DNA of 57,564 nt from Terriglobia bacterium. GTDB taxonomy: Bacteria > Acidobacteriota > Terriglobia > 20CM-2-55-15. A model generated the notes under the pieces. That model was not told the DNA's origin. It did no database searches and saw nothing but the letters and a program-made list of their open reading frames with translations. The stretch is taken from contig DASXLG010000074.1 of NCBI GenBank assembly GCA_036496425.1, positions 1 to 57,564 of the forward strand, in the 5' to 3' direction. The translations under genes and the position numbers were made by a program. This document shows, one piece after another, positions 8,333 through 44,414 of the stretch (position 1 is the stretch's first letter; each line of letters begins with the position of its first letter).

Positions 8333-9358
8333 TTACCGGAAGATCCGCTGGCTGCGGACGAAATCCGTCATTGATGACAGGGATGTAAATCCTGCTGTGG
8401 TCCAGCGTATCAGGACGCTGGATGGGTCCATGGGCAGCGACGAGATATTCGCCACGTACTGGCCCCAGGCCCGGATGTAATCCTCGACATTCGAAATGTA
8501 GAACGCATGGACGACCGCGCCATGCTCTTTCAGATATTGGGCTACGGCGCGAATCGCTTTCGGGCCGGCGAAGTCGCCGACGATCGGCACAATCAGATTC
8601 GCCTGGTGCATGGCGCGAATGCGGTCATAGTTTTCGCGCGCCGCCAGGTAACTCCAGTTTTTGCCGGCACCGTCGGTCAGCGTCATCAACGCGGCATAGC
8701 CGGGACTTCTGAAACTCGAATCGAAACTCAGCACGCCTTCGCGGGCGAAGTTCCGGTAGATCGTGCGAATTCCGCGTTCATCCCCGGCGGTGAGCGGAAA
8801 GTGGTGCCGGGTTTTCAGCCGGTCCAGGATCCCTTTCGTGTGTTGTTCGACCAGCGCCGGGTCTACCGGAGCTCCCGTGAACGTGCGGAAGATCGTTTCG
8901 ATCGGACTGCCGGCGGTCAGCTGGGCCGGAGCCTTTCTCGAGAACAGGTTCGATACGAACTCCACGCGATCGGCCGACATTTCGAAGATGCTCTTGTACA
9001 TCAGATGCTCGAGCATCATGTCGCGCCGGATGTCGAAAATGAAGGCGATTTTCGGTTTTAGCGCCGCGATGTACGTGAAATTCTGTTCAGGCCCCACACC
9101 AAGGTATGCCCCGCCCGTTCGCGGTGTTCTCATCAAGCCCGGCAGGACCTGCTGATACGAGACCTCGTTGGACGTGATGATTTCATACTGGAAATAGCCG
9201 CTCGGCTCGGAAAATCCGAAAATCATCTGCCAGTAGTCGGAATCGCTGAGCTGTGCCGGCAGCGTTTCTGCGGAACGCGAAACGGCCGCGGGCAGAAGAA
9301 TGAGGAATGCGAGAAGCGCTGTTGCGATGACGGGCGTCCAATTGCCTCTGATCTGCAT
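8333..9358 (-). CDS. Exported protein of unknown family, paralogue of the 43284-44414 product
   Basis: 341 residues with an N-terminal signal or anchor helix (TALLAFLILLPAAVSRSAE). The central block GGAYLGVGPEQNFTYIAAL, then KIAFIFDIRR and LEHLMYKSIFELS-like residues, resembles the nucleotide-binding loop arrangement of methyltransferase-like folds. A C-terminal block reads GDFAGPKAIRAVAQYLKEHG followed by YISNVEDYI. The same blocks occur in the same order in the gene at 43284. The family appears conserved and uncharacterised (possibly the DUF7790 group, not certain). No catalytic residues can be assigned. A long hairpin follows the stop. Confidence 0.75.
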   Translation of the reverse strand: MQIRGNWTPVIATALLAFLILLPAAVSRSAETLPAQLSDSDYWQMIFGFSEPSGYFQYEIITSNEVSYQQVLPGLMRTPRTGGAYLGVGPEQNFTYIAALKPKIAFIFDIRRDMMLEHLMYKSIFEMSADRVEFVSNLFSRKAPAQLTAGSPIETIFRTFTGAPVDPALVEQHTKGILDRLKTRHHFPLTAGDERGIRTIYRNFAREGVLSFDSSFRSPGYAALMTLTDGAGKNWSYLAARENYDRIRAMHQANLIVPIVGDFAGPKAIRAVAQYLKEHGAVVHAFYISNVEDYIRAWGQYVANISSLPMDPSSVLIRWTTAGFTSLSSMTDFVRSQRIFR

Positions 9359-9459: not shown

Positions 9460-12216
9460 ATGAAAAGCGAGGAACTGAACCAAACTTTCGAAAAGTTCTG
9501 GTCCGACATCCGCGGTTTCAACCTGTACGCGGGACAACCCAGCAACCGCCAGTCCGAATTGGCGGTAGCGATGGCGCGCGAGGCGGTACGGCTGGCAACA
9601 GAGGCCGCCAACGCCGATCTGCTCCTGCAAGCCCACGACATGCTGCGCTACGGCCTGACGGCAAACGAGCAGGCGGACGAAGCCCTTCCTTACTACAACC
9701 TGGTGATCGCGGGTTATGAGGCTCGTGGAAACCAGGCGAGGGTTTCCCGCGTTCGCGTTGGTTTTGTTGAGGCGCTTCTGCGCTCAGGCCGTTATGCCGA
9801 TGCATTCAGCGTCGCGCATGTTGCCGAGCGATGGCTGAAGGACCATGGTGATAACGACGGATACGCGCGCCTCTGCACCGGCGTCGCGAACGCGTATTCC
9901 CGGCTGGGTCAGCACCAACGTTCCAGCGAGTACTATGCCGTCGCCGCGCGGGTGTTCGAAGAAATCGGTGATCGTGCCGCATTGGCCAAGGTATATCTGA
10001 GCCTCGCCTACGCGCTTTACCGGCTCGATCAGTACGAGCAGTCCGACGCCATGTACGAAAAGGCCGAGCAGACCGCCCGCGAAATGCGGCTGGATGCGCT
10101 CGAGGAACAGGCGAAATACAATCGCGCCTATCTTCACTATCTGCGAGGCCTCTACAGCCAGGCGCTGCAAGGCTTCTCCCGTATCCGACGGCAGCTCACG
10201 AGCAGCCCGCGTCATATCGCCTTGTGCGACCTCGACGAAGCGGAAATCTATCTTCAGCTCAACCTGCCCAAAGAGGCTGCAACGCTTGCGAGGCGGGCGA
10301 TCGAAGAATGCAACCGGATCGGAATGCGCTGTGAGGAGGCGAAAGCCCGGACCTTCTTTGGCGTCGCGCTTATGCGCCTGCGGCGCTTCGATGAAGCGCT
10401 GGACATCTTTCGCGCCGCCCGGAAAGGCTTCGAAGACGAAGGCAACGACTATTGGATCGCCCTGCTCGACATTCACGCGGCGGATGTCCACCTGGCCCTC
10501 CAACATTACAACGACGCGCGATTGCTGGCGGCCGAGGCGAAGCGGCTTTTTGAAACTCTCGGAATTCCTTCCTGCCGCATGCTCAGTTTTGCCCTACTGG
10601 TCCGAATAGCGATCGCTTTGAACGACGTGACCACTGCCGAAGAACATCTCGCGCAAATGTCTGCCATCATCGATGAGACTCGCATGCCGCTCCTGGTTTT
10701 TCCCTACTACATGCTTTGCGGCCAGGTCGCCGAGATCAAGAAGGTCTGGAAAGAGGCCGAACGGGCATATCGTCTTGCGGCAGAGGATCTGGAAGAACAT
10801 CATACCCGGCTGCAGCACGATGACCTCAAGGTCACGTTTCTGGAAGGCCGCAATCAGGTCTACGAAGCCCTCACCCGTTTGAATCTCGACGCAGAAGAGG
10901 AATCGGTAAGCGCCGCCTTCTCCTGGTGCGAGCGCGCGAAATCCCGGAGTCTGGTCGAACTTCTCGCGCAGAGCCTGCCATCTGTTCCTGCCCGTACCGA
11001 TAACGCTCTGCTCCGGCGGATCGAGCACCTGCGTGAAGAGTTGAATGTTCACTACATGCGGTGCAAGCCGGAGAGCCGATCCCGCAAGGCTGTGAAGAAT
11101 TTCGACGTGATTGTGGCGAAGGAGCGGGAAATCGCCCATGCTCTGCGTGAAACCGCCACCGAAGACTCCGAGTACGCATCGCTGCAGCAGGTCCATGCTG
11201 CAGGGCTCGAAGAGGTCCAGGAATTCCTTCCCGATCGCACAACGTTGATCGAGTACTTCATCACGCAGCAGGAACTGATTGCTTTCGTCATCTCCCCGCG
11301 TACTGCCAGGGCGGTCCGGCGGCTCGCGCTCACCGGATATGTGCGGGCGCTTTATGAGAAGCTGTCGTTCCAACTCGACAATTTTCTGCTTGGCCGGGGT
11401 TTTATAACATCGCACTCCGCACAAATTCTTGAAGTGACGACGCACTATCTGCAGGCATTACACAAGGCGCTGGTCGAACCGCTGCTGGGGGAGGTTACGA
11501 CGCCACACATCGTTATCGTGCCCCACGGATTTCTTCATCACCTTCCCTTTCATGCCTTTTATGACGGGTCACGCTACCTCTGTGACCGCTTCGAGATCAC
11601 ATATGCGCCAAGCGCTTCTGTTCTGCGTTACTGCATAAAAAAAACCGATGTCGCGGATGCCCGGCCCCTGATCGTCGGTGTGGCCGACACCAATGCCCCG
11701 CGGGTGGACTTTGAGGTCTCGGCCCTGCAAAACATTTTTCCCGAATCCACTGTTCTTTCCGGAGAACGCGCCAACCGCGAGGGCTTCTCTCAAGCGGCCC
11801 AGCGTGCCTCATTTGTTCATGTGGCGACCCACGCGGCCTACCGCCGGGACAATCCAATGTTCTCGAGCTTCAAACTGGCAGACGGCTATGTCACGGCGCT
11901 GGATCTGTTCTCTATGAATTGCCAGGCAAACCTGGTCACACTCAGCGGGTGCCAGTCCGGTCTGGGTCAGATCGCTGATAGTGACGATCTGCTCGGACTC
12001 ACCCGCGGTTTTCTTTACGCGGGCGCCCGCTCACTTCTGATGAGCCTTTGGACCGTCAGCGACGAGTCAACCGTGACTCTCATGAGCGCGTTCTACAAAG
12101 AGTGGCGGGCAGGGGCCACCAGAGCGAAAGCGCTTCAGAACGCAATGCAAACTGTTCGCGTTGCTTATCCGAATCCATTCTACTGGGCGCCCTTCGTACT
12201 GATTGGAAAGACGTGA
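9460..12216 (+). CDS. TPR-CHAT protein with intact caspase-like His/Cys dyad
   Basis: 918 residues. About 1-480 form a chain of tetratricopeptide repeats (for example the LGQHRSSEYYAVAARVFEEI region), followed by a linker (about 480-630) and a C-terminal CHAT peptidase domain (about 640-918). The CHAT dyad is complete: His791 in VHVATH and Cys831 in LVTLSGCQSG, followed by the usual DDLLGLTRGFLYAGARS and SLWTVSDEST. CHAT domains are caspase-like proteases found in separase-like, HetF and CRISPR-associated Csx29 proteins. The substrate here is unknown; the TPRs probably sense a partner. It is followed by a 134-residue protein and a histidine kinase. A degenerate paralogue lies at 37410. Confidence 0.93.
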   Translation: MKSEELNQTFEKFWSDIRGFNLYAGQPSNRQSELAVAMAREAVRLATEAANADLLLQAHDMLRYGLTANEQADEALPYYNLVIAGYEARGNQARVSRVRVGFVEALLRSGRYADAFSVAHVAERWLKDHGDNDGYARLCTGVANAYSRLGQHQRSSEYYAVAARVFEEIGDRAALAKVYLSLAYALYRLDQYEQSDAMYEKAEQTAREMRLDALEEQAKYNRAYLHYLRGLYSQALQGFSRIRRQLTSSPRHIALCDLDEAEIYLQLNLPKEAATLARRAIEECNRIGMRCEEAKARTFFGVALMRLRRFDEALDIFRAARKGFEDEGNDYWIALLDIHAADVHLALQHYNDARLLAAEAKRLFETLGIPSCRMLSFALLVRIAIALNDVTTAEEHLAQMSAIIDETRMPLLVFPYYMLCGQVAEIKKVWKEAERAYRLAAEDLEEHHTRLQHDDLKVTFLEGRNQVYEALTRLNLDAEEESVSAAFSWCERAKSRSLVELLAQSLPSVPARTDNALLRRIEHLREELNVHYMRCKPESRSRKAVKNFDVIVAKEREIAHALRETATEDSEYASLQQVHAAGLEEVQEFLPDRTTLIEYFITQQELIAFVISPRTARAVRRLALTGYVRALYEKLSFQLDNFLLGRGFITSHSAQILEVTTHYLQALHKALVEPLLGEVTTPHIVIVPHGFLHHLPFHAFYDGSRYLCDRFEITYAPSASVLRYCIKKTDVADARPLIVGVADTNAPRVDFEVSALQNIFPESTVLSGERANREGFSQAAQRASFVHVATHAAYRRDNPMFSSFKLADGYVTALDLFSMNCQANLVTLSGCQSGLGQIADSDDLLGLTRGFLYAGARSLLMSLWTVSDESTVTLMSAFYKEWRAGATRAKALQNAMQTVRVAYPNPFYWAPFVLIGKT

Positions 12217-12302
12217 TTCCAGCGTCTTGGCGCGCTCAAAACATCTCAATATGGTTTTTACTCTGTCTCCGGATACGTATAATGCCGGTAAGGAGATGGC
12301 TG

Positions 12303-12707
12303 ATGCAGTCGGGCGAAAAACTTGCTGAGCCGAATTTCGATGCGCGGCGGGAGCTTGCCGCGGCAATCGTGTTTGATAGTCTGACGCAACCATTTGCCGA
12401 TGCCCGCGGCGCCACAGACGCCCGCCAGGTTGTCATGGGCGCCGAGGAATTCGATATCCATCTGAAGATTTCCACGAATCCTTCCCAGCATCAGATCGTC
12501 GGCCAGGTTTTTGCTCGAAACGAAAAGCAGTTTCTGAACAGCATCCGCCTGCACTTGCTGCTGGACGGAGAGCCCTTCCAGACGGCCTGGAGCGATAACT
12601 TCGGCCAGTTTCATTTCGACGACGTTCCAGCGGGTGTGTTCCGCCTTCAGATTTGTTTGCCGCAGCTGACGATCGTTGGTGGAATAACGATCGATGAACA
12701 GACCTGA
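12303..12707 (+). CDS. Small partner protein of the TPR-CHAT gene, with carboxypeptidase-regulatory-like fold
   Basis: 134 residues starting MQSGEKLAEP. The ATG at 12303 was chosen because AGGAG sits seven bases before it; a longer frame upstream overlaps the CHAT gene and lacks support. The N-terminal third is helical and acidic. The C-terminal half (IRLHLLLDGEPFQTAWSDN, then FGQFHFDDVPAGVFRLQI) looks like a beta-sandwich of the carboxypeptidase regulatory-like or prealbumin kind. No enzyme motif is visible. Its position 86 bp after CHAT and 46 bp before a histidine kinase suggests a role as adaptor or substrate in the same circuit; this is inference. Confidence 0.65.
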   Translation: MQSGEKLAEPNFDARRELAAAIVFDSLTQPFADARGATDARQVVMGAEEFDIHLKISTNPSQHQIVGQVFARNEKQFLNSIRLHLLLDGEPFQTAWSDNFGQFHFDDVPAGVFRLQICLPQLTIVGGITIDEQT

Positions 12708-36353: not shown

Positions 36354-37325
36354 TTATGCGGGGACAGGCGTTTGATCGACGATCTCCTGCAGAACCGAGT
36401 CTGCGTCCCGATGGCTTCGGGAACCCGAACGGATCATCGCGAGGCGGTGCTCGAAAACCGGGTGCACCAGCTTCTTGATATCGTCAGGGACCACGAAGCT
36501 CCGGCCCTCGAGCATAGCCATTGACTGCGCGGCCCGGAAAAGCGCGGCTGTTCCCCGCGGGCTGATGCCGAGTTCGATTTCGGAGTGCGAACGCGTGCGG
36601 TTCACGATCTCGATCATGTAATCGACGAGCGATTCTTCGATGTGAATCTTCCGGCTTTCGTCCTGCAAGGAGAGAACCTCAGCCGGGCTCAATACCGCTT
36701 CTCCGGGGAGCCGGTTGCCCGAGTTGGAAAATCTCTTCAGGATTTCTTTCTCTGCGGCCGGATCGGGATATCCGATGTTGATGCGCATCAGGAAGCGGTC
36801 CAGTTGCGATTCCGGAAGCGGGTACGTTCCGTGATGTTCGATCGGGTTCTGCGTGGCAAGAACCATAAAAGGGCGCGGCAGGGGATACGTCCGGTTCTCG
36901 ATCGTCACCTGACCTTCGTTCATCGCCTCCAGCAGCGCGCTTTGTGTCTTGGGCGTCGTGCGGTTGATTTCGTCGGCAAGGACGATGTTGGCGAAAATCG
37001 GTCCGGGCTTGAACTCGAATTCACTCAACCTGGGATTGTAGACCGAAACGCCGAGTACGTCCGAGGGGAGAAGATCGCTGGTGAATTGAATGCGATGAAA
37101 TTCGCAATCGAGCGAGCGGGCGAGCGCGTGTCCCAGTGTCGTTTTGCCGACGCCGGGTACATCTTCGATCAGCAGATGGCCTTCGGCCAGCAACGCAACG
37201 ATTGCCAGGTTAATGGTTTCCTGTTTTCCTTTAACCGTGATTCCGATGGCGTCGCGGAGCGCAAAAATCTTCTCCCTGGCCGTTGTTTCGAGCGTTTCCA
37301 TTGTGGTCCGAAGCGATTCTAGCAC
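36354..37325 (-). CDS. MoxR-family AAA+ ATPase, second copy
   Basis: 323 residues beginning at GTG (37325); an ATG nine codons later is an alternative. Walker A is DVPGVGKTT (55-63), and the Walker B/sensor block ANIVLADEINRTTPKTQSAL is complete. The AAA+ lid includes SPRGTAALFRAAQSMAMLEG. It heads the moxR-DUF58-transglutaminase operon. It differs enough from the copy at 1307 (VPGVGKT against VPGLGKT, EINRTTPKT against EVNRATPKT) to be a distinct subfamily and not a recent duplicate. Confidence 0.95.
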   Translation of the reverse strand: MLESLRTTMETLETTAREKIFALRDAIGITVKGKQETINLAIVALLAEGHLLIEDVPGVGKTTLGHALARSLDCEFHRIQFTSDLLPSDVLGVSVYNPRLSEFEFKPGPIFANIVLADEINRTTPKTQSALLEAMNEGQVTIENRTYPLPRPFMVLATQNPIEHHGTYPLPESQLDRFLMRINIGYPDPAAEKEILKRFSNSGNRLPGEAVLSPAEVLSLQDESRKIHIEESLVDYMIEIVNRTRSHSEIELGISPRGTAALFRAAQSMAMLEGRSFVVPDDIKKLVHPVFEHRLAMIRSGSRSHRDADSVLQEIVDQTPVPA

Positions 37326-37409: not shown

Positions 37410-40118
37410 ATGAAACACCTGACATTTGCCGAAATAAGGCACATGGAGACGGGTGTATCTGAACTCGATCAGGCAATCGACGACTTGTGGAAACGAGTGC
37501 GCCAGTCCAACTTATATGGCGGGCGTCCCCGTAACTCGGTCTCTGAAGAAAGTGTCGCAGCGGCGCGATCGGCGTTGACCCTCGCGCAGGACTCCGGCGA
37601 TCGCCGTTTCCTGAGGGAAGCGTGGTGCATGATGGCGTGGGCTCTGAATGCGAACGAGCAGCCTGCCGAGTCTCTCATCTATAGCAGGCAGGCGATACCG
37701 GCGCTCGAGCAAGCGGGAGAATTTGAGCGGGCTGCGCGGATGCGATTGGGCTTCATGGTCGCTCTTTCGACGACCGGGCAGTCCAAAGAAGCTCTTGCCG
37801 TTGCGCGTGAGGCGCAGGAATTCTTCCGCAAAAGCGGCGACGACACATCACTGGCGAAAGTGGCGACGAACCTGGGGGCGGTATATCAGCGCCTTGACGA
37901 CCACACGCGCGGGTTTCAGTGCCACCTGGAAGCCGCTGAATTGTTCAGAAAGACCGGTGAAGAGCGCGGGCTGGCTCAAGCCTGTCTAAACCTGGGGAAT
38001 GCGCTCACGGTTCTGGACCGCTTCTCCGAGGCCGAGAAAATGTATGAGGACTGTGACGAGATCGCCACAAGACTCACACTCGATGATTTGCGGGCACATG
38101 CGATATACAACAAAGCATATCTCTATTTCGTTTCGGGCCGTCTCAGCCAGTCGCTTACCGTTTACCGCGACGCCCGGCAAATGTTTTCAGGCAGTGGAAG
38201 CCGTTTGCACGCCGCCTTGTGCGACCTGGATGAGGCGGAAATCTACGTCCAGCTGCGCCTTCCGCAGGACGCGCTGATCCTGGCTCAATCTGCCGCACGA
38301 TCCTTCGCTGAACTCGACATGCCGCACGAGCAGGGAAAGGCGATCGCCTTCGGAGCGGTTGCGCTCACGCAGAAACGGCAGTTCGGCGACGCTCTGGCAG
38401 CATTTAAAGAAGCCCAGACCGTCCTCAGAACAGGCGGCAGCATGTTCTGGATGGCGCAGCTTGATCTGTATCGGGCAGAGGTTTTGTTCTCGATCGGCAG
38501 GTTATGGGAGGCCTACTCCCTGGCATCTGCGGCGGATGGGAAGTTCGAGGAGTTAGGGTACTCCACAAAGCGCCTGATCACGCTCGTGTTGCTCGGCCGT
38601 GTTTCGATGGCCTTGGGAAGGCCCGACGAAGCGGAGTTTCATGCACGCCGGGTGGAGGAACTGGCCGGGCAGACGAAGATTTCAGTCTTTCTCTTCGCCT
38701 GTTACGCCTTATCGGCCGAGGTTGCGGAGGGGGAGCGGCAATTCGAGCGGGCACGTGTCCTTTATGAACGGGCGGCGCGGGAAATAGAACTGCGTCACAC
38801 CCATTTGCACCACGATGAACTGGGCATTACTTTCTATAAGGACAAAGCCGGGGTGTTCGAATCGCTGGTGTACCTGGCGCTGGACTGCGGTGACGGCTCG
38901 GAACCGGCAGCCCAAGCCTTTACCTGGTGCGAGAAAGCAAAATCACAGGTGTTCATCGACGCTCTGGCGCCTCATCTTCCTACAGTTCGAAGCAAGGCCG
39001 ACGAAGCCCTGATTACTCGCGTCGATCGTCTGCGGGCGGAACTGAACGGTTCCTACATGCGTTTTCGTCCGGAGTTTCTGGCCACGCCCGGATTGCCGCA
39101 GGACGCACAGGTTGAACTGAGAGAAGACGAGTTAGCGCGGACGTTGAACGAACTTTCGAGGTCCGATTCTGAGTACGTTTCCCTCCAGGTCGCATCCAGC
39201 GTGCGGTTGGAGGAGCTTCAACAGGCGCTTCCCGAAGACACGACTGTTCTGGAATATTTCTTTGCGCGCGACGAAGTGATGGCCTTCGTTATTTCCGCCT
39301 CAACCTTCCATGTCGTCCGGCACGTGACTCCGACCAAGCGGGTGCAGTTTCTGGCGGGGCGTCTTCAATACCAGTTGGAACGGTTCTCCGCCCTGATTCG
39401 AAACAAGAAGTCGGACGTGTCGATCCAGCGTGCAGCGACGGACGACCTGCTGCGGAATTTTTACAGCGAACTGATCCAGCCCGTCATGCCGTTCATCAAT
39501 ACATCGGGGTTGATCATTGTTCCGCACGGAGTCCTGCATCGAGTCCCATTCCATGCCTTCTTTGACGGCGAGCGATATGTCGCCGATTTATTCGATGTGT
39601 CTTATGCACCGAGCGCTTCTGTTCTGAAGTATTGTCTGGACCGGCAGGATGTAACGGAAAAGGCTCCGCTGCATGCCGTTACCAGGCCCGCTGCCAGTCT
39701 GGTGGCAAGTTTTGTCCATACCGAGGCGCGGGTGGCTTTGAGGCAGGACAACCCAGTGCTTTCGCGTCTCGAGTTTGCCGACGGCGCATCCTGTGTGCCG
39801 GATATCTATGCCGCCCAATGGCAAACGAACCTGTTGTCCATCTGTTCAGCGGAGACTTCGATGAATGGCAGTGCCGATGTGGATGGTTTTCTGGGTTTGC
39901 TGCGGTCCTGCCTGTACGCCGGTTGCCGTTCTGTTTTGATGGAGTTATGGAAGGTACGTCCGGAACCGTCCGTGCGCTTCTTTGATCTCTTCTACTCGGA
40001 ATGGCCGGCGGCGGGAAAGAGCAGGCAGGAAGCGCTATCGATAGCTCAGGAGTGCCTCAGGCGCGAGTTTCCCCATCCGCTCGACTGGGCGCAGTTCATT
40101 CTGGCGGGCGCGCGTTAA
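37410..40118 (+). CDS. TPR-CHAT paralogue with degenerate catalytic site (pseudo-protease)
   Basis: 902 residues, paralogous to the protein at 9460 over the whole length (compare NLYGGRPRNSVSEESVA with NLYAGQPSNRQSELAVA, and both YAPSASVLKYC/RYC). TPRs fill about the first half and the CHAT domain the C-terminus. The dyad is lost: the His of VHVATH is Arg774 in VHTEAR, and the Cys of LSGCQSG is Ala814 in SICSAETS. About 45 residues before the His are also deleted. The flanking fold (RQDNPVLSRLEFADG, GFLGLLRSCLYAGCRSVLM) is kept, so the protein is probably stable and acts as scaffold, decoy or regulator rather than protease. Confidence 0.9.
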   Translation: MKHLTFAEIRHMETGVSELDQAIDDLWKRVRQSNLYGGRPRNSVSEESVAAARSALTLAQDSGDRRFLREAWCMMAWALNANEQPAESLIYSRQAIPALEQAGEFERAARMRLGFMVALSTTGQSKEALAVAREAQEFFRKSGDDTSLAKVATNLGAVYQRLDDHTRGFQCHLEAAELFRKTGEERGLAQACLNLGNALTVLDRFSEAEKMYEDCDEIATRLTLDDLRAHAIYNKAYLYFVSGRLSQSLTVYRDARQMFSGSGSRLHAALCDLDEAEIYVQLRLPQDALILAQSAARSFAELDMPHEQGKAIAFGAVALTQKRQFGDALAAFKEAQTVLRTGGSMFWMAQLDLYRAEVLFSIGRLWEAYSLASAADGKFEELGYSTKRLITLVLLGRVSMALGRPDEAEFHARRVEELAGQTKISVFLFACYALSAEVAEGERQFERARVLYERAAREIELRHTHLHHDELGITFYKDKAGVFESLVYLALDCGDGSEPAAQAFTWCEKAKSQVFIDALAPHLPTVRSKADEALITRVDRLRAELNGSYMRFRPEFLATPGLPQDAQVELREDELARTLNELSRSDSEYVSLQVASSVRLEELQQALPEDTTVLEYFFARDEVMAFVISASTFHVVRHVTPTKRVQFLAGRLQYQLERFSALIRNKKSDVSIQRAATDDLLRNFYSELIQPVMPFINTSGLIIVPHGVLHRVPFHAFFDGERYVADLFDVSYAPSASVLKYCLDRQDVTEKAPLHAVTRPAASLVASFVHTEARVALRQDNPVLSRLEFADGASCVPDIYAAQWQTNLLSICSAETSMNGSADVDGFLGLLRSCLYAGCRSVLMELWKVRPEPSVRFFDLFYSEWPAAGKSRQEALSIAQECLRREFPHPLDWAQFILAGAR

Positions 40119-40750
40119 ACAAACGCGCGCAGAAAAGCATCCACGACGCGCGGGTCAAACTGAGTGTTCGCACAACGCGCGATTTCATTGACGGCTTTTT
40201 CGTGTTCCTGCGAGCGGCGATATGGACGATTCGTTGTAAGGGCGTCATAGGTGTCTGCGACAGCGACGATCCGGGCGCCGAAGGGGATTTGATCTCCCGC
40301 GAGTTCACCAGGATAACCTGCGCCATCAAACCGTTCGTGGTGATGAAGGAGGATGAGGCTGGCCTCTTCGAAACCTTCGACGTTTCTGAGGACCATCCAG
40401 CCGAACTCGGAATGTTTCTTGATGTACTCGAACTCGTCCTCGGTCAACCGTCCTGGTTTCAACAGGATGTGGTCCGGCACACCGATTTTGCCTACGTCGT
40501 GTAATGAGGCGGCCATAAGCACCATTTCCGTTTCCGAATCGGTCATGCCGAGTTCGACGGCGATCCGATGGCTGTATTCCGCGACTCTCGTGCTGTGTCC
40601 GCCGGTGTAGCAATCCCGGAGGTCCACAAGCGATACGAGCGTCGAGGCCATCGCCAGCACCTGCTCCCGGAAGGTATCCTCCATCTTGAGCATGTGAAAG
40701 CGCGTCTGTGCCGGTGTAAGTTGCGACGTTTCCAAAGCAAACCGCTGCAT
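40115..40750 (-). CDS. HD-GYP domain phosphodiesterase
   Basis: 211 residues. After a short helical N-terminus (MQRFALETSQLTPAQTRFHM) comes a full HD-GYP domain: CYTGGHSTRVAEYSHRIA, LHDVGKIGVPDHILLKPG, SLILLHHHERFDGAGYP and ARIVAVADTYDALTTNRPYR. The metal ligands and GYP signature are intact, so it should hydrolyse cyclic di-GMP or a related dinucleotide. There is no receiver or sensor domain in this chain. It is convergent with the degenerate CHAT gene, sharing four bases at the stops. Confidence 0.94.
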   Translation of the reverse strand: MQRFALETSQLTPAQTRFHMLKMEDTFREQVLAMASTLVSLVDLRDCYTGGHSTRVAEYSHRIAVELGMTDSETEMVLMAASLHDVGKIGVPDHILLKPGRLTEDEFEYIKKHSEFGWMVLRNVEGFEEASLILLHHHERFDGAGYPGELAGDQIPFGARIVAVADTYDALTTNRPYRRSQEHEKAVNEIARCANTQFDPRVVDAFLRAFV

Positions 40751-43283: not shown

Positions 43284-44414
43284 TTACAGGGCGAACAGGT
43301 CGATATAGGACCGAATCTGACCGCTCTTCACCGCGGCCAGTGTTTCCTGCATTGACGCCAGTACGTTCGGCGCCCGCATTCCGCCTCCAGCGAATCCCCT
43401 GACGCCACCCCCTGCCGATCGGATAAACGTGCTTGATGCATCCAGCGGTAGAGTGGCGGCGTTGTTATAAAAATTCGTCCAGCCGCCGTTCTCATTGCCA
43501 TTTCCCTGGAACAGATACTGTTCAACGTTGGATAAGTAAAACGCAGTAACCGTCGCGTTGTGATCCTTCAAATACTTTCCAACCGACCGGATAGCCTTGG
43601 GTCCGCCGAAGTCTCCAGTCAGGGGGACGATCAGGTTCTTCATTTCCAGATCCCGCAGAAAGCGGTAATGCTCTTCGTTTGCAAGATAGCTTCGCTTTTC
43701 GCCCTTCAGATCGGTTGCGACCATCAATTCGGTATAGTTCGGCATTCCACCTCGTCCACGTCCGCGCAAGCTGCCGCCGGAGTTGTAATCCATTTCCGGA
43801 CCGAAGCTGTGGAACACGGTATAGACATGCGCAATACCGTCTTGATCCTCAGGCGTCAGGCCAAACTTGTGTTTTGTGAGGAGGAGGTCTTTGATGTCCT
43901 GAAGATTTTTCTGAAACGCAGCATTGTCCAGCGGCTCTGCCGCCGCGAACGCATTGAAGAGGTCGTCGACTGTGGATTTTTCGGTCAACCCTGCAGGCCG
44001 CTTAACTGAAAACAGCCGCGCGAGGAAATCGGCGCGATTGGGCGACAATTCGAATACCGCCCGATAGAGCATGTGTTCGAGCATGTTCTGGTGGCGTATG
44101 TCGACAATGAACGCCATCTTCGGCCGGATTCCGGCGATGTACGTAAAGTTTTGTTCGGGCCCGACACCCATGTAAACGCCGCCGGGTTTCGTCGTCTGCT
44201 GGAGGGTCGGGATTACAGCCTGGAATCCGGTCTCGTTGGAAAGGAAATTCTCGGACTGGAAAGCGCCGCCATCCTCGGAAGAACTATCGATCAGTTTCCA
44301 GAATGCATCGTCCGGAAGCTGGTTGGGCAGCGTGTCGGCAGCGCGCAGTGCCGTTGAAGAGAACACGAGCGCCGCGATAATCGAGAGCAGCGCGAAAGGA
44401 AATCGGATCCGCAT
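43284..44414 (-). CDS. Exported protein of unknown family, paralogue of the 8333-9358 product
   Basis: 376 residues with a signal peptide (FALLSIIAALVFSSTALRA). It shares with the protein at 8333 the blocks GVYMGVGPEQNFTYIAGIRP, AFIVDIRHQNMLEHMLYRAVF, GDFGGPKAIRSVGKYLKDHN and FYLSNVEQYLF. An extra glycine-rich insertion (GGGVRGFAGGGMR) lies near the C-terminus, and another (NSGGSLRGRGRGG) in the middle. The GxGxEQNF block looks like a nucleotide- or SAM-binding loop, but an exported location argues against SAM use. The function is unknown. Confidence 0.78.
   Translation of the reverse strand: MRIRFPFALLSIIAALVFSSTALRAADTLPNQLPDDAFWKLIDSSSEDGGAFQSENFLSNETGFQAVIPTLQQTTKPGGVYMGVGPEQNFTYIAGIRPKMAFIVDIRHQNMLEHMLYRAVFELSPNRADFLARLFSVKRPAGLTEKSTVDDLFNAFAAAEPLDNAAFQKNLQDIKDLLLTKHKFGLTPEDQDGIAHVYTVFHSFGPEMDYNSGGSLRGRGRGGMPNYTELMVATDLKGEKRSYLANEEHYRFLRDLEMKNLIVPLTGDFGGPKAIRSVGKYLKDHNATVTAFYLSNVEQYLFQGNGNENGGWTNFYNNAATLPLDASSTFIRSAGGGVRGFAGGGMRAPNVLASMQETLAAVKSGQIRSYIDLFAL

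Follow-up and report, generated by a model that had tools for sequence, protein, structure and literature searches.

The gene at positions 37410..40118 (+) of the window, by which we mean the whole stretch of 57,564 nucleotides analyzed here from a contig of a Terriglobia bacterium, encodes a TPR-CHAT paralogue of 902 amino acids (P0001) that has lost both residues of the catalytic dyad and was maintained by purifying selection long after that loss. Judged from its sequence, P0001 appears to be a pseudo-protease that stems from an already known kind of operon and is uncoupled from its substrate, so that it would act via binding if it acts at all. The gene is now being lost in sister species and its function is dispensable, with the reservation that one of the breaks, in the genome G002, is possibly an assembly fault.

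P0001 consists of a TPR half (residues 18–590; 37461..39179, +; assigned by Pfam and an AF2 model) and a CHAT half (residues 591–902; 39180..40115, +; assigned by alignment and Pfam). It aligns end-to-end with an intact TPR-CHAT protein of 918 amino acids encoded 28 kb away (P0002; 9460..12216, +; assigned by alignment and Pfam) at 36% identity over 918 columns and 582 bits in BLASTP, which bears out the earlier note in its description of an unbroken 902-codon paralogue of that copy. The alignment equally confirms the two substitutions described there: His791 of the HVATH motif in P0002 (codon 11830..11832, +) corresponds to Arg774 in P0001 (39729..39731, +), and Cys831 of SGCQSG (11950..11952, +) to Ala814 (39849..39851, +), while the flanks of the lost residues are retained (ALRQDNPVLSRLEFADG; GFLGLLRSCLYAGCRSVLM), as is the first histidine of HxxxH (H770). 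A deletion ahead of the catalytic histidine is also present, at residues ~755–757 (39672..39680, +), although it is smaller than the ~45 residues estimated before: L754 and H770 lie 16 residues apart in P0001 and the equivalent L738 and H787 49 residues apart in P0002, which corresponds to ~33 residues. The CHAT family itself is still recognized, with 89 bits against a curated cut-off of 24 for PF12770, but the match falls into two pieces with an E-value of 4e-25 compared to 4e-64 for the intact copy, and R774 and A814 take the place of the His/Cys dyad of that family. In the AF2 models, the TPR helix pairs of P0001 are predicted fairly confidently as far as residue ~460 (pLDDT mostly 70–90). 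With the three-row alignments used for the dead and the intact copy the mean pLDDT is 59, and the CHAT halves of both lie mostly below 50, too poor for a comparison of the dead with the intact fold. PADLOC returned a weak TPR match for the dead copy and nothing for the intact one, thus giving no sign there of a known defence system. The source genome (6.16 Mb in 407 contigs) encodes several more TPR-CHAT paralogues besides those of the window.

How the dead copy arose and fared was followed across the genus (six genomes) and the family (eleven genomes); a scan of genome contigs returned one locus only, in a same-family genome. An orthologue exists in G002 at the same locus, between the MoxR/DUF58/TgpA cluster, whose head, a MoxR-type AAA ATPase (36354..37325, −; Pfam), forms the left syntenic anchor in the window, and the gene of an HD_5 domain protein (40115..40750, −; Pfam) that forms the right anchor and belongs to the family closing many intact operons. 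The MoxR orthologues are 77–80% identical in four of the five other genus genomes, and the HD_5 protein has counterparts of 75% identity next to the dead copy of G002 and of 69% identity next to a third dead copy, which is located on a different contig in G004 and has an open frame. By Pfam, the neighbours of the window gene comprise MoxR, DUF58, TgpA, HD_5, DUF6152 and DUF7790 proteins as well as others. P0001 and its G002 orthologue are 63% identical across the TPR half and 58% across the CHAT half, and the orthologue carries the same deletion before the histidine and lacks both catalytic residues; the histidine column holds P in G002 and E in G004, the cysteine column I and L. Of the CHAT domains of the family and the TPR-CHATs taken as a sample from elsewhere in the class, all those in which both columns are present keep the dyad except these three, which argues that the loss in the window is not a matter of chance. 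In a full-length tree the three dead copies form one group (support 93/97); the TPR-half tree leaves the G004 copy unplaced and does not resolve a single dead lineage, and in the HD-protein tree the three dead loci are not grouped, a grouping that is not rejected either (p-AU 0.12).

Evidence that this lineage was maintained comes from its codons. Between the window gene and its G002 orthologue, codon positions 1/2/3 differ by 28/21/59% in the TPR half and by 33/22/61% in the CHAT half. Pairwise codon likelihood rejects omega = 1 with 2dlnL of 384 (TPR) and 203 (CHAT, residues 614–902) and also omega = 0.3 with 102 and 61, where saturation of the synonymous sites means that omega is bounded and not measured. 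Because neutrality is rejected in the CHAT half of a pair that lacks the dyad, the pseudo-protease lineage was maintained as such. The constraint has moved from the CHAT toward the TPR half: the ratio of CHAT to TPR divergence is 1.05–1.15 in dead pairs, all three confidence intervals reaching below 1, compared to 0.68–0.87 in intact pairs, so that the constraint on the CHAT half was relaxed and not abolished.

On these grounds the earlier proposal of a selected pseudo-protease holds insofar as the dead lineage is shared with other species of the genus and remained subject to purifying selection well beyond the loss of the dyad; what speaks against it is that sister species can do without the gene. 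A short deletion interrupts the reading frame of the G002 orthologue: the codons between QAL and EYFF are absent and the frame shifts; since conservation resumes in the next frame, the break is either recent or an assembly fault. In G001 the same locus retains a relic of only 26 codons that matches residues 676–701 at 65% identity, and no trace of the gene is found at the MoxR locus in G003 or G004. Relic and frame break imply that the gene is dispensable, the latter with the caveat just given, and they show that current selection on it is weak or absent in G002 and G001. The earlier note had taken absence from relatives or frameshifts in them as signs of random decay, and this is in part what we see, with a broken frame in the G002 orthologue and a remnant in G001; G004 has a separate dead copy.

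The same observations feed the strongest of the alternatives, namely that P0001 is a slowly decaying relic which had a long role after dyad loss and has none now, the window genome holding the last unbroken copy. The broken, reduced or missing genes in G001 to G004 would fit such a history, as would the variation of the dead-site residues among species (R/P/E and A/I/L), which resembles that at unconstrained positions. Against this, the window copy is open across all 902 codons, its pair with G002 is ~60% identical and yet has a strong codon-position bias in both halves, and the rates on the two dead tips are similar, which implies that neither has been neutral for long. We therefore treat decay without present function as possible but doubtful.

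To understand what the dead copy has been uncoupled from, one has to look at the operons of its intact relatives. Their order is an ECF sigma gene, the TPR-CHAT gene, the gene of a ~200-residue protein, a secreted subtilase and an HD_5 protein, and this set recurs, more or less complete, at 20 loci that belong either to other families in the class or to same-family outgroups, with the sigma gene at 20/20 of them. An ECF sigma factor adjoins most intact copies; the one on C288 matches the general ECF superfamily model TIGR02937. The ~200-residue protein has three parts. Its head bears an HxxxC..C zinc finger that in some members is recognized as zf-HC2; the linker (FDSFxxPxxAGxRG) contains an Asp and an Arg that are invariant; and the third part is a beta-sandwich weakly similar to CarboxypepD_reg. 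Beside the intact window copy this linker/beta-sandwich protein is encoded at 12282..12707 (+), has 141 amino acids counted from the ATG and lacks the zinc-finger head; its assignment is based on 48% identity to the C288 partner of G000 (tblastn), an HMM E-value of 1e-50 and the alignment. Several variants of these operons were seen. Between their catalytic Asp and His, the subtilases contain LDQSSASF-like repeats of ~9 residues each, ~3 to 8 of them in tandem depending on the locus (L048:4958-6235 −, L014:9205-10530 +, L058:7236-8567 + and others). A locus of G001 (L214:2916-5854) keeps sigma factor, linker protein and subtilase with a CHAT reduced to its last ~43 residues, and the TPR-CHAT on C624 of G002 (L063:2069-4757) keeps the dyad in a frame split into three pieces. 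The idea of a promoter common to the ECF genes was considered and discarded, as the TGGGAAGC...TGATG pair, which is enriched upstream of them in other families, reads as conserved coding sequence (WEAEIDRLM) of an upstream gene; the pair is absent from the dead locus.

The partners have disappeared together with the dyad. The linker/beta-sandwich protein is found beside 17/17 intact family copies with enough flank, including the intact window copy, and beside 0/3 dead copies; Fisher's exact test, calculated by hand, gives 1 in 1140, a figure that overstates independence because the loci are related. An ECF sigma factor likewise adjoins 0/3 dead copies, the sole match being weak (12 bits) and antisense, and a subtilase is present beside the dead copies of G002 and G004 and not in the window. 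Two other intact copies keep the linker protein though they lack the sigma gene and the zinc finger. The dyad thus goes along more closely with the linker protein than with the sigma factor, which makes the linker protein the likely substrate of the CHAT domain. More than once the protease was lost and the TPR part kept, as is evident from TPR-only paralogues of ~430 amino acids without CHAT, which are open in four species, namely G000, G001, G002 and G004 (L015:5256-6554 −, L169:2508-3815 −, L170:4296-5579 +, L171:3460-4740 −). They end alike with LKLTINKR or LKLAINKR and have neither sigma factor nor linker protein beside them, and three of the four adjoin a subtilase.

Two known systems help to place these operons. 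According to a review of ECF sigma factors that cites the ECF re-classification, the neighbourhood of group ECF54 comprises a carboxypeptidase, a subtilase and CHAT proteins, and control without an anti-sigma factor is proposed for it (PMC8999054). The intact operons resemble it by gene content, having an ECF sigma factor, CHAT, subtilase and a protein weakly similar to CarboxypepD_reg; they differ in that the linker protein carries a zf-HC2-type, anti-sigma-like head, and the dead locus differs in having neither the sigma factor nor the CarboxypepD_reg-like protein. The second system is type III-E CRISPR, in which the TPR-CHAT protease Csx29 cleaves Csx30, a protein that inhibits an ECF sigma factor (PMC10028731). 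Csx29 is the best match of the intact CHAT domain among solved structures (E 3e-5), of which the dead copy matches no CHAT chain by sequence. Common to Craspase (Csx29/Csx30/CASP-sigma) and the intact operons are the TPR-CHAT protein, a cleavable sigma inhibitor, here putative, and the ECF sigma factor (PMC10028731). In contrast to Csx29, the dead copy has no catalytic dyad, the family model NF041237 gives only 30 bits for the dead and 62 bits for the intact copy against a cut-off of 300, and neither Cas7-11 nor any other cas/CRISPR gene is among the neighbours identified by Pfam. By this analogy, the intact CHAT likely releases the sigma factor by cleaving the linker protein. Among the papers searched, none joins CHAT with subtilase and tetratricopeptide, and in the literature found the mechanism of such operons has so far been proposed from gene order alone.

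The mechanism we consider somewhat more probable than its opposite is the following. In the intact operons, the TPR half is probably a sensor for a cytoplasmic signal, and the target of the CHAT half is probably the conserved linker (FDSFxxPxxAGxR) of the neighbouring protein. Cleavage would separate the anti-sigma-like zinc finger from the beta-sandwich, and as the two reside at opposite ends of the linker protein, cutting would free the sigma factor. The dead lineage has given up dyad, sigma gene and linker protein and kept its TPR half and CHAT sequence under the purifying selection described above; with partners and dyad lost and the sequence still constrained, function most likely lies in binding alone. 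We infer that the dead copy competes for signal or partners with the intact modules that the genome encodes at other loci, and thereby damps them, so that it would be a non-cutting, dispensable pseudo-protease from an ECF-sigma operon. A far bolder extension, which we regard as speculative and rather unlikely, is that the CHAT family cuts one shared linker on proteins with interchangeable heads (zinc finger, NusG, small N-terminal domain) and so controls several transcription regulators, the dead and TPR-only copies being non-cutting competitors that set the threshold of the network.

A narrower version of regulation, in which P0001 is a dedicated regulator or decoy of the intact 9460..12216 copy as the earlier note had suggested, fares poorly. 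The two genes belong to one family and lie on the same contig, but the 9460 copy is a long branch without a clear orthologue in the other genomes with a dead copy, G002 and G004, and every genome of the genus has several intact CHATs, so that no one-to-one pair exists; we thus deem this relation improbable. Trypanosome prozyme, a catalytically dead paralogue that was shown to regulate its active partner enzyme (PMC5201418), offers a precedent: likewise, an inactive paralogue is kept beside active family members, with the difference that the window gene is only a putative partner and is lost in sister species. That P0001 is still an active peptidase using other residues is hardly credible, for while H770 is kept and residues of other types occupy the sites, both dyad columns are replaced differently in each dead copy, all other TPR-CHATs having these columns keep the dyad, and the locus no longer has the gene of the candidate substrate.

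The comparison of dead and intact copies amounts to a natural experiment on what the protease requires: the partner gene that is missing along with the dyad is the best substrate candidate, and its linker with the invariant Asp and Arg is the candidate cleavage site. If this is true, the logic of sigma release by a CRISPR-linked TPR-CHAT protein would also apply to an ordinary operon on the chromosome, one that occurs across a class of Acidobacteria.

Some further members of the families involved were encountered. At L055:3825-4856 (−) the linker/beta-sandwich protein has a NusG-type domain (Pfam E 6e-16) instead of the zinc finger, and its gene lies upstream of an intact CHAT. Other proteins of this family occur with no CHAT detected in the examined flank (L204, L205, L206, L207, L210, L211 and L213) and carry another small domain at their N-terminus; the family has 19 matches in G002. 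Finally, two DUF7790 proteins that are ~43–45% identical are encoded in the window near the intact and the dead copy (8333-9358, −, and 43284-44414, −), and a third is located near the MoxR cluster in G004 (L167:7812-8888).
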